Origin: Nocardioides solisilvae
GTDB taxonomy: Bacteria; Actinomycetota; Actinomycetes; Propionibacteriales; Nocardioidaceae
Direction of reading: 5' to 3'
DNA length: 64,000 nucleotides
Assembly: GCF_003194625.1 (NCBI RefSeq)
Contig: NZ_QHKX01000001.1
Span: 124,001 to 188,000 of the forward strand
The notes under the pieces are model-generated. The model was given only the letters and a program-made list of their open reading frames with translations. It did no database searches and was not told where the DNA came from. Positions 47,704-60,729 of the stretch are shown here, one piece after another. Position numbers and translations under genes: made by a program. Each line of letters begins with the position of its first letter. The stretch's first letter is position 1.

Positions 47704-49524
47704 ATGATCGGAGGGATTCGGGTCGTGCAGGGGGGCGAGATGGCGAAGACGGGGTTCCGCGGGTGGCAGCGGACCACCGCCGGCGCGCCCCTGGCCGCCC
47801 TCGCGGTCGGCTGGACGGCGTGCCTCGCCGCGCTGGGCGCCCCCGGGCCCGGTGCCCCCGGCGCGGGTGCCGTCGCACCCGACGGCGCCACGGCGGTGCT
47901 CGCCGCCCCGGGCGCCTCCGGACCCGCCGGGGGCGGCGGCGCGGGCTCCGCGACCGACCCGGTCCGCGACCTCCCGCCGCCCGACGTGGTCCGGGCGGCC
48001 GAGGTCGACAGCGTCGCCCGGGAGGTCGCCACCGGCCTCGACGTCGAGGCGGCCAGCAGCGGAGCCGTGCCGGGGCCCGCCCTGGCGGCGTACCGGCTCG
48101 CCGAGGCCGTGATGCGCACCGCCGACCCCGGCTGCGACCTCGACTGGGCGGTGCTGGCCGCGATCGGCCGGGTGGAGTCCGACCACGGGCGGTACGGCGG
48201 CAGCGTGCTGGACGACGACGGACGGTCCCGGCCCGGTGTCGTGGGGATCGCGCTCGACGGCCGCCACGGCACGGCGCGGATCACCGACACCGACCGCGGG
48301 CGCCTCGACGGCGACGACCGGTTCGACCGGGCCGTCGGCCCGATGCAGTTTATCCCGTCGACGTGGTCCGCGGTCGCCGTCGACGGGGACGCCGACGGCG
48401 TCCGCGACCCCCAGGACCTGGACGACGCCGCGCTGGCCGCGGGCGTCTACCTGTGCTCCGGGCCGGGCTCGCTCGCCGACCCCGCGACGCTGCGCGACGC
48501 CGTCCTCTCCTACAACCGCTCGACCAGCTACGTCCGGCTCGTGCTGGGGGTCGCCGAGGCCTACCGCGGGTCGACCGCCGCCGACCCGCTCGGTGCGCGC
48601 TCGCTGCAGGCGGCCGGCGTGGCCGACCGGCTCCGGCCCGGCGACCCCGGCTGGCGCAGCAGCCCGGGCAGCGGCGTCGTGGCGCCGGCCCAGGAGCTCG
48701 CGGTCCACCCGCTCACCAGCACCCGCGGCCGGCAGGGCGAGGAGGCGGGGCCGCGGATCGAGGCGCTCGGCCCGCCCACCCCCTGGCCGCCGTCGCGGCG
48801 CCGCACGCCGACGCCCAAGCCCACGCCGACGCCAACGCCCACGCCCACGCCCACGCCGACGCTCACCCCCACGGCCACCCCGACGGCGACTCCCACCCCG
48901 ACGGCGACTCCGACGCTCACCCCCACGGCCACCCCGACGGCGACTCCGACGGCGACTCCGACGGCGACCCCGACGACCGAGCCCACCCCCACGGCGACGC
49001 CCACGGTGACCGACTCGGCCCAGCCCACGCCCTCCGCCGAGCCGACGCCGACCGCCGAGCCGTCCCCGTCGACGGATCCCACCGACGTGCCCACCGACGG
49101 ACCCGCGGACCCCGATGACGGGTCCACCGACGAGCCCTGGGTCCCGCCGGCGCTGCCGACCCCGCGCGGCCCGCTGCCCGACGTGGACCCGACGACGCTC
49201 CCCTTGCCTGACGACCTGCCTGACGACCTGCTTGACGACCTGCCTGCCGATCTGCGTGACGACCGGCCTGTCGACGACCGCCCGGCGGACGAGGCCGCGA
49301 GGATCGCGCTGCTCACCGCGGCGGCGCTCTGCCTGGAGTCGGGCGTGGCGCTGGAGGACGTCGAGCAGCTGGAGGCGTGCCTGGCCGACTGGCTGCTGCC
49401 CCCGCCCGACGGGACCGGGGAGGAGCGCGAGCAGGAGCCCCCGGCGGGTCAGCCCGCGGCCCGGGCGGCGGGTCCGGCGGTCAGCGGGTCAGGAGCCGTG
49501 CGGCCTCGGCGGCCCAGTAGGTGA
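47704..49524 (+). CDS. Secreted or anchored lytic transglycosylase with Thr-Pro repeat tail
   Basis: 606 residues. An N-terminal hydrophobic segment (about 26-46) is a signal or anchor. The SLT-type domain lies at about 125-290, with catalytic Glu in [18 protein letters not shown], and [11 protein letters not shown]. It cleaves peptidoglycan glycan strands. A Thr-Pro/Ala repeat tract follows (about 368-440), then an Asp/Leu/Pro repeat (about 502-521), probably a wall-spanning stalk. Start choice is uncertain: GTG at 47725 has GGAGGG at good spacing, and ATG at 47740 is also possible. The 3' end overlaps hemB by 44 bases. Confidence 0.85.
48806..49020 (+). repeat. Thr-Pro coding repeats, with two 38-base perfect copies
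   Basis: Short period-6 and period-12 repeats of ACG/CCG-type codons encode TPTPTP and TATPTP runs. Within them a 38-base unit at 48856-48893 recurs exactly at 48910-48947 (period 54, 18 residues). The array is in frame, so length changes alter only stalk length. Confidence 0.8.
49208..49267 (+). repeat. Five 12-base repeats coding an Asp-rich segment
   Basis: Units like CCTGACGACCTG, five in a row with slight changes, encode LPDD/LLDD-type tetrapeptides in the transglycosylase tail. They are acidic, unlike the preceding Thr-Pro stalk, and possibly bind cations. Confidence 0.75.
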
Positions 49525-58331: not shown

Positions 58332-59192
58332 ATGCTCGGGAGGCACGACGCCCGCGCGGGGCTGGAGGAGCTCCGCCGCGCGGCACTGGCTGCCCTGCGC
58401 CCGACCCTGCTCCCCACCCTGAGCCCGACCGGGGAGCTGCGGTACGCCGTCCCGGACGGCCTGCTCCTCGCCGAGGCGGGCCCCCGGCTGCAGGCGCCCG
58501 CCCGGGCCGGCACCGCCGCCGCGCCCGACGTGCCCGCGCCCCGGGGTCGCGGCCGGACCCGACCCGGCGACCGGGACCGCGCGACCGCCAACGAGGTCGA
58601 CGAGGCCGAGCGCGAGCGGCTGATCGCCCTGGTCGAGCTTGCCCGCGGCGGCGACGCGGAGGCCTTCGGACTGCTCTTCGACCACTACCACCGCGCCGTG
58701 CACCGCTTCCTGCTGCACCGCACGGGATCGGTCACCCTCGCCGAGGACCTCACCTCCGAGACCTTCTTCCGGGCGCTCCGCTCGATGCAGGACTTCCGCT
58801 GGCAGGGCCGGGACTTCGGCGCGTGGCTGACCACGATCGCCCGCAACCTGGCGGCCGACCACTTCAAGTCGGGCCGCACCCGGCTCGAGAGCAGCACCGA
58901 CGACCTCGGACCGCACGAGGCGGCCCTCGACCGCGACCGGGTGGTCGGCGGCCGCGACCCCGGGCCCGAGGAGGCGGCGCTGGCCTCCGCCACGCACGCG
59001 GTGCTGCTCGCGGCGCTGCGCTCCCTGCCCGACGACCAGCGCGACTGCCTGGCCCTCCGGTTCCTCCAGGGGATGAGCCTGGCGGAGGTCGGCGAGGTGC
59101 TCGGCCGCTCGACGGGTGCGGTGAAGCAGCTGCAGCTGCGGGGCCTGCGCACCCTGGCCCGGCGGCTGCCCGCGGAGATGGCCGAGCCGTGA
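58332..59192 (+). CDS. bldN: BldN-like ECF sigma factor with N-terminal extension
   Basis: 286 residues: an extension of about 95 residues, sigma region 2 (about 100-185) and region 4 (about 225-280). The core is very close to Streptomyces BldN, with AEAFGLLFDHYHRAVHRF, AEDLTSETFFRALR, WQGRDFGAWLTTIARNLAAD and LRFLQGMSLAEV. Streptomyces BldN is likewise made with an ~86-residue N-terminal extension that is removed. GGGAGGGAGGGG precedes ATG. It is followed by its probable anti-sigma gene, with a BldN-type promoter between. The symbol reflects similarity and synteny. Confidence 0.88.
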   Translation: MLGRHDARAGLEELRRAALAALRPTLLPTLSPTGELRYAVPDGLLLAEAGPRLQAPARAGTAAAPDVPAPRGRGRTRPGDRDRATANEVDEAERERLIALVELARGGDAEAFGLLFDHYHRAVHRFLLHRTGSVTLAEDLTSETFFRALRSMQDFRWQGRDFGAWLTTIARNLAADHFKSGRTRLESSTDDLGPHEAALDRDRVVGGRDPGPEEAALASATHAVLLAALRSLPDDQRDCLALRFLQGMSLAEVGEVLGRSTGAVKQLQLRGLRTLARRLPAEMAEP

Positions 59193-59196
59193 GGAC

Positions 59197-59225
59197 CGTA
59201 ACCTCCGCCCCCTCCGGCTCGTTGC
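59197..59225 (+). promoter_or_regulatory. BldN-type promoter between sigma and anti-sigma genes
   Basis: CGTAAC (59197-59202), 17 bases, CGTTGC (59220-59225). The Streptomyces BldN consensus as I know it is CGTAAC-N16-CGTTGA; this matches 11 of 12 bases with one extra spacer base. It begins five bases after the sigma stop and would start transcription near 59232, about 52 bases before the anti-sigma ATG. Confidence 0.72.
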
Positions 59226-59283
59226 CACCAGTGACCCGGCCGTTCCCGGCGGTCCGGGCGCGCTCCCGAGGAAACCGCCAGCC

Positions 59284-60729
59284 ATGACCCGCCCGTCCCG
59301 CCCGTCCCGCCTGCCCGGCCTGCCCGGGTCCCGTCGGCGCGCGGCGGCGCTGGCCGAGCTGGACGCGCTGGCGGACCGGCTCGCGCGGGTGCCGGACACC
59401 CCGCCCCGGGCGGAGTTCGTCGCCGACCTGCGCGACCGGCTCGTCGCCGAGGCCGCGACCGTCCTCGTGCCGCGCGCGCGGGCGGGCGGGCTGCGCGACG
59501 GCACCGGCCCCGGCACTGGCCCCGGGGTCAGCACCGGGGTCAGGACGCCGGCCCGGCAGGTGCGGGACCGGCGGGTGGCCGCCGTCCTCGGCACCGCCGC
59601 GGTGCTCGCGGCCAGCGGCTCGGTCGGCGCGGCCTCGCAGGCGGCGATGCCGGGCGAGTTGCTCTACCCGGTGAAGTCGGTCCTGGAGTCCGCCCGGGAG
59701 CAGCTCGCCACCGGCGACCGCGACAAGGGCGAGCTGCTGCTGGCCCGGGCCGGCTCCCGCCTCGACGAGCTCGAGGAGCTGGTCGCGCGCGGCGACGACG
59801 ACAGCCTCGGGGCCACCGGGCCGACGCTCGAGGACCTCGCGGCCCAGGCCGAGGAGGGCGGCGGGCTGCTGCTCTCCGACTTCGAGGCCGACGGACGCCG
59901 CTCCTCGGTGCTCGCGGTGCGGGAGTTCGCCGCGGCCGCGCTCCCCCGGCTCGAGGCCCTCGCCCCGGACCTGCCCGCCGAGGCCCGCGACCCGCTCGTC
60001 GCCGCGGCCGAGGTGCTCGTGGCCCTCGACGACCGCGCCGTCGCGGCGTGCCCCGACTGCGGCGGACCCGACGTGCTCGTCGTCCCCCGCTTCCTCACCG
60101 CCCCCGTCCCGGTCGGTGCCGGTGGCGCCGACGGACCGCTGCCGCTGGCCTCCGGCGAGGGGCCGGCCGTCGGAGACGACCCGGCCGAGGCGCCCGGCGG
60201 AGCCGGGGACCCGGTCGGGCCGGGCACTCCCGGCGTGGGTCAGGAGGGCGAGCCCGCCGGGCCGTCCGCCTCCCCCAGCGCGTCCCCCCACGCGACTCCC
60301 AGCGCCTCGCCCACGGGCGGACCGGGCGGCACCGGGCCCACCGACCCGCCGACCTCCAAGCCCACCGACCAGGGCTCCGCGAGCGCGTCGCCCAAGCAGT
60401 CCCCCAGCCCGACCGCGAAGCGCACCGAGGAGACTCCCGCAGCGACCTCGGTGCCGCTCCCGACGCCGAGCGACGTGGTGGAGGAGCTCACCGAGGCGCT
60501 CGTCGGGTCCGGCGAGCCGAGCGGCACCGGTCCGACCGGCCCGGCGGACCAGGAGCCCACGGACGCCGGCCTCGTCGGTGACGTCGGCCAGGTGCTGGGC
60601 GAGGTCACCGGCACGCTGCTCGGCACCCCCGTCGGCGAGGCCGTGGAGCAGACCACCGGCGGCGTCCGCGGCTTGGTCTCCGGGGTGCTGCGCGGGGTCA
60701 ACGGGGGAAGGCGGAACCCCGGTCCCTGA
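59284..60729 (+). CDS. rsbN: Probable membrane anti-sigma factor (RsbN-like, DUF5667)
   Basis: 481 residues. A cytosolic N-terminal part (1-95) includes LDALADRLARVPDTPPRAEFVADLRDRL as two shorter conserved pieces. One membrane helix lies at about 97-117, then a DUF5667 region (from AAMPGELLYPVKSVLESA, about 120-230), an extracytoplasmic CPDC pair (Cys256, Cys259), and a long Pro/Ser/Thr/Gly-rich tail. The position directly after the BldN-like gene, and its topology, match RsbN, the BldN anti-sigma factor. GAGGAAA lies upstream of ATG. Sigma binding is inferred, not visible as a known motif. The end overlaps the acyltransferase gene by 32 bases. Confidence 0.78.
   Translation: MTRPSRPSRLPGLPGSRRRAAALAELDALADRLARVPDTPPRAEFVADLRDRLVAEAATVLVPRARAGGLRDGTGPGTGPGVSTGVRTPARQVRDRRVAAVLGTAAVLAASGSVGAASQAAMPGELLYPVKSVLESAREQLATGDRDKGELLLARAGSRLDELEELVARGDDDSLGATGPTLEDLAAQAEEGGGLLLSDFEADGRRSSVLAVREFAAAALPRLEALAPDLPAEARDPLVAAAEVLVALDDRAVAACPDCGGPDVLVVPRFLTAPVPVGAGGADGPLPLASGEGPAVGDDPAEAPGGAGDPVGPGTPGVGQEGEPAGPSASPSASPHATPSASPTGGPGGTGPTDPPTSKPTDQGSASASPKQSPSPTAKRTEETPAATSVPLPTPSDVVEELTEALVGSGEPSGTGPTGPADQEPTDAGLVGDVGQVLGEVTGTLLGTPVGEAVEQTTGGVRGLVSGVLRGVNGGRRNPGP

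Follow-up and report, generated by a model that had tools for sequence, protein, structure and literature searches.

A BldN-RsbN-type sigma/anti-sigma pair with a conserved, probable feedback promoter in Nocardioides solisilvae, and a probable secreted-hydrolase regulon in its genus

In Streptomyces, BldN is the gatekeeper of aerial growth, a role that it exerts through the chaplins. The window analyzed here (the whole 64-kb stretch of N. solisilvae DNA) carries a gene for a BldN-like sigma factor followed by one for a membrane protein, and we asked what such a pair might control in a genus without chaplins. Sigma factor, anti-sigma factor, and autoregulatory promoter all seem to have been kept there, with a clear alternative output, and the question of what BldN did before chaplins becomes directly testable in a simpler host in which exact transcription starts are predicted.

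A first-pass annotation of the locus, made from the letters alone, had described the upstream gene as a BldN-like sigma factor with an N-terminal extension, and the family model, the structural match, the synteny, and a common extension motif all agreed with this. The gene (58332-59192, plus strand) encodes a BldN-type ECF sigma factor of 286 amino acids, whose best NCBIfam model was TIGR02952, "BldN family" (152.7 bits, under the cut-off of 206), and whose best PDB match was S. venezuelae BldN (6dxo_A, E 2.6e-45). About 98 residues precede region 2, against an extension of some 90 residues expected for sigma-BldN, and this extension contains the motif GLxxLRxxxLxxL (58356-58397, plus strand; AGLEELRRAALAAL), which is common to congeners and Streptomyces-like BldN (GLATLRATVLDHL) and takes the form GLxxLRxxVLxxL in chaplin-bearing genomes. 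Furthermore, the ten-gene order hemC-hemA-rex-glutaredoxin-HAD-bldN-rsbN-acyltransferase-epimerase-HTH was identical in a chaplin-bearing genome (G231). The locus thus resembles the Streptomyces sigma-BldN/RsbN system (SCO3323/SCO3324; S. venezuelae; PDB 6DXO) in synteny, ECF family, and extension motif.

The downstream gene (59284-60729, plus strand) encodes a protein of 481 amino acids, and a homologue was present at the same position in the bldN-bearing congeners that were read. It has a predicted cytoplasmic sigma-binding domain (residues 1-96, 59284-59571), a single transmembrane helix (residues 98-116, 59575-59631) that is the hydrophobic maximum of the protein and lies at the same place in congeners, and a DUF5667 domain predicted to lie outside the membrane (59644-59856; Pfam PF18915, E 4.9e-10), all on the plus strand. 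A profile built from seven congeneric N-termini, with zero Streptomyces rows, found RsbN as its best PDB match (6dxo_D, E 1.1e-4), and when Streptomyces-like rows were added, the RsbN chain of 6DXO was matched at E 1.8e-20. With this match and the one helix, the earlier description of an RsbN-like membrane partner held. The protein shares with Streptomyces RsbN its adjacency to bldN, a homologous N-terminus, one transmembrane helix, and a BldN-type promoter before the gene, but differs by a shortened sigma-binding domain: in alignments, the segment between RRRA and an RPEF-like motif lacks about 20 residues that congeners have, a loss that falls between the first two helices. We also considered a class I anti-sigma factor and rejected it, as Pfam gave no such family for the partner and RsbN was the best structural match. 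The pair is similar to class I pairs of the RpoE/RseA type in that a membrane anti-sigma factor is encoded after the sigma factor, which, here by prediction, drives its own inhibitor; it differs in that RsbN is the founder of a separate class of anti-sigma factors, ASDIII (PMC8103513). Taken together, the synteny, the family models, the extension motif, and the 6DXO match argue that both genes are orthologues rather than look-alikes, and we regard it as very probable, from these comparisons, that the two genes are orthologues of Streptomyces bldN and rsbN and that a feedback promoter precedes rsbN.

That promoter had been noted as CGTAAC-N17-CGTTGC, five bases past the sigma stop, and both coordinates and reading frames were as described. 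The site (59197-59225, plus strand) begins at the fifth base past the TGA that ends the sigma frame at 59192, and consists of a -35 element CGTAAC (59197-59202), a 17-base spacer (59203-59219), and a -10 element CGTTGC (59220-59225). CGTAAC-N16..18-CGTTG occurred once in the 64-kb window, with 0.00 occurrences expected from shuffles, and CGTAAC-N16/17-CGTT occurred four times across the four contigs of the genome (3.58 Mb in all), compared to zero for a reversed-pattern control. When a profile of the site was used, the rsbN site was the top match genome-wide (E 2.6e-4). Among 41 congeneric loci, a site between bldN and rsbN at N17 was found in all, with an exact match, including the -35 hexamer, in 40 of them; TCGTT at -10 was invariant, while spacers and flanks were unrelated among the loci. 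On the strength of this footprint, 59197-59225 is to be read as a real promoter.

Two statements of the annotation about BldN agree with the literature. The BldN motif has been given as CGTAAC-N16-CGTTGA, the sequence of the S. coelicolor bldM promoter (PMC2375139), which has the same -35 hexamer and CGTT core as the sites studied here. It differs from the rsbN promoters of the genus in its spacer (N16 versus N17) and at -10, where the "GA" positions of the Streptomyces consensus vary within the genus and only TCGTT is invariant. In addition, rsbN itself is a BldN target in S. venezuelae, where it has a BldN-dependent promoter (Chandra & Chater, PMC4255298). Outside the genus, the rsbN site was present at N17 in f22, f11, and f1g9, at N16 in f16, f12, and f27, and at N16 or N17 in 8 of 8 loci of f3 and f4; in the chaplin-bearing genomes of f22 the promoter reads N17-CGTTGT. 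Since the site is kept across several families, including chaplin-bearing genomes, the feedback loop appears to be old. The loop is already published for Streptomyces, and the conservation adds its evolutionary depth; orthology and the promoter shared by several families support the proposal of the annotation that the same loop operates in this organism. In three f17 loci (L053, L054, and L057), no BldN-type site was found before rsbN, and the genes overlap in two of the three; going by these sequences, such loci must have lost or rewired autoregulation. Read-through from bldN on a bicistronic message may also reach rsbN. Two BldN orthologues of f3 (L163 and L164) have no N-terminal extension, yet their rsbN promoter is kept.

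Chaplins (PF03777) were found in 0 of 40 congeners. In a repeat of the search with a positive control, four f22 genomes gave 9 to 15 chaplins per genome, which marks f22 as Streptomyces-like, and the other families tested gave 0. Chaplin control is a feature of the Streptomyces regulon and not of the BldN protein family. CGTAAC-N16/17-TCGTTG gave 88 sites, among the matches listed, in the 40 congeners, compared to 4 for the reversed pattern, and forty further regions were read alongside six others and two sites of the window genome. By a simple rule, 29 of 40 downstream proteins looked secreted, compared to 7 of 36 window genes. Trypsin-like proteases lay behind sites in seven genomes and M6/InhA-like proteases in four; beta-helix proteins (three), X-Pro peptidases (two), M4 and M12 proteases, penicillin amidase, PhoD, and esterases were also encoded downstream of sites. 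In 17 congener cases an ATG stood exactly 35 bases past the start of the site, with no enrichment at other offsets, so leaderless mRNAs would be expected. The same offset places the predicted start of the anti-sigma transcript in the window at 59232 (plus strand), the position that the annotation had named. Unlike the Streptomyces BldN system, with its chaplins, the genus has a lytic transglycosylase and secreted peptidases and hydrolases as its putative targets, many of them with predicted leaderless mRNAs. A regulon of secreted hydrolases under BldN, in place of chaplins, is probably the output in the genus, as far as site distribution can tell, and it is this output that is new.

Not all proteins behind such sites look secreted. 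Five congeners (L173, L186, L188, L194, and L199) encode apparently cytoplasmic proteins of 84 to 93 amino acids with an ATG exactly at +35 of a BldN-type site, the arrangement predicted to be leaderless; these proteins may belong to the presumed regulon without being secreted, and a Pfam scan of one of them gave no match. A second family of small proteins (82 to 83 amino acids; L195 and L204) lies right behind BldN-type sites, and in three f3 genomes (L210, L211, and L212) the gene of an ABC transporter ATPase, Mce-type by eye, is preceded at a distance of about 80 bases by a BldN-type site that is conserved among them.

BldN could nevertheless be a developmental switch as in Streptomyces, controlling aerial growth and sporulation, with the hydrolases as developmental effectors. 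A mycelial cycle could make use of proteases and murein hydrolases, convincing BldN orthologues have been reported only in morphologically complex genera, and Nocardioides has been called mycelial (PMC4255298). However, none of the 40 congeners has chaplins, the recurrent targets are secreted enzymes, and the bldN locus is near-universal in the genus, small genomes included, and we consider a developmental role possible but rather unlikely. In a bolder reading, to which we give a probability of about one half, BldN-RsbN in the genus and allied families would act chiefly on secreted enzymes that degrade murein and protein. The transglycosylase near bldN would be the most constant target of this switch, and leaderless mRNAs would be frequent; control of the cell wall and secretome would then be the older role, and chaplins would have been recruited later in the Streptomyces line.

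Besides rsbN, the second recurrent putative target was a secreted lytic transglycosylase (SLT_2/MltB-like) encoded 10 to 16 kb upstream of bldN in congeners. Thirty-eight genomes, the window's own included, were read for a site before this gene. An exact CGTAAC-N16/17-CGTT was present in 33, at 63 to 160 bases from the gene start, with one mismatch in two further genomes and two mismatches in one; only the window genome and its nearest relative (G028) had no site. These promoters have N16 or N17 spacers, and a fixed N17 matrix misses the N16 sites. As a control, 480 bases surrounding the start of the bldN match were scanned in the same way and gave 0 of 41. A sister genus had exactly two sites per genome, one before rsbN and one before the transglycosylase, and the transglycosylase genes of f3 and f4 also have a site upstream.

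The sites might instead be read mainly by another ECF sigma factor of similar specificity, with BldN only sharing the consensus. These genomes hold many ECF genes, and ECF factors often have common -35 "AAC" and -10 "CGT" cores. Against this, all families tested, except part of f17, have the site within the bldN-rsbN locus, and complete genomes without bldN (G023, G150, G162, and six of f2) had neither an intergenic site with a gene downstream nor a close transglycosylase. As bldN and the transglycosylase are linked, losing them together says less than losing each separately would. In one further genome (G016) bldN was not found, but two sites stand before genes for secreted proteins and the assembly is only 87% complete, and the bldN region is probably missing from it. 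We judge control by another sigma factor to be improbable. That the motif between the two genes is a chance match can be dismissed almost entirely, for short hexamers can arise randomly but the footprinting (40 of 41 congeneric loci exact), the shuffles, and the reversed-pattern control refute it.

The window organism itself provides a thinner case. The annotation had expected cell-surface outputs other than chaplins; this was borne out for the genus, whereas in the window genome the transglycosylase has no site, which leaves a secreted M19-dipeptidase-like gene as the one convincing candidate output of that kind. A genome search of the sort that it had proposed, for CGTAAC-N16/17-CGTTG upstream of surface-protein genes, gave this gene as the best match besides rsbN. 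Its site (G000:C1:1058203, minus strand, N16) is followed by AAGGAGG and then an ATG about 12 bases past the predicted transcription start; among 20 relatives, one has the site exact and four others have it with one mismatch, which makes the gene poorly conserved as a target. It would be the only convincing target besides rsbN in this genome. Two other sites (G000:C2:975417 and C3:249869) seem to fall within other genes and are probably chance matches, and a site 180 bases before guaA (G000:C3:476962) is doubtful as a target. The window's own transglycosylase gene (47740-49524, plus strand; SLT_2, MltB-like; PF13406 at E 2e-7, TIGR02283) was ruled out as a BldN target, since base-by-base reading of its upstream region gave a best match with 3 mismatches; its product carries a long Thr-Pro repeat tail. 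By comparison with the other genomes, the window organism and G028 have lost the transglycosylase site, and in the window organism the loop seems intact while the regulon looks reduced. A lineage that kept the loop and lost this promoter offers a natural test of regulon shrinkage.

For the mechanism, we infer binding, release, and transcription from Streptomyces (PMC8103513 and PMC4255298) together with the sequence. The sigma factor would be made with its N-terminal extension, and the cytoplasmic N-terminus of RsbN would bind it at the membrane, away from RNA polymerase, until some signal on the outer, DUF5667 side frees it. The freed sigma factor would then transcribe rsbN from 59197-59225, starting near 59232, to give negative feedback. 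Across the genus it would also drive secreted hydrolases, the lytic transglycosylase foremost, often as leaderless mRNAs, while in the window organism a small regulon would comprise rsbN, the M19-dipeptidase-like gene, and perhaps others. We likewise infer the membrane side, the signal, and BldN, as opposed to another sigma factor, as the reader of the sites, whereas orthology, conservation of the promoter, the distribution of the targets, and the lack of chaplins are seen in the sequences themselves.

Finally, control of bldN itself may have left a trace upstream. A 15-base palindrome (GTAACTNNNAGTTAC) was observed 5' of the bldN match start in a subset of the congeners, at eight loci (L008, L010, L011, L015, L017, L019, L037, and L038), with variants in L018 and L020, and is possibly an operator for some regulator of bldN.
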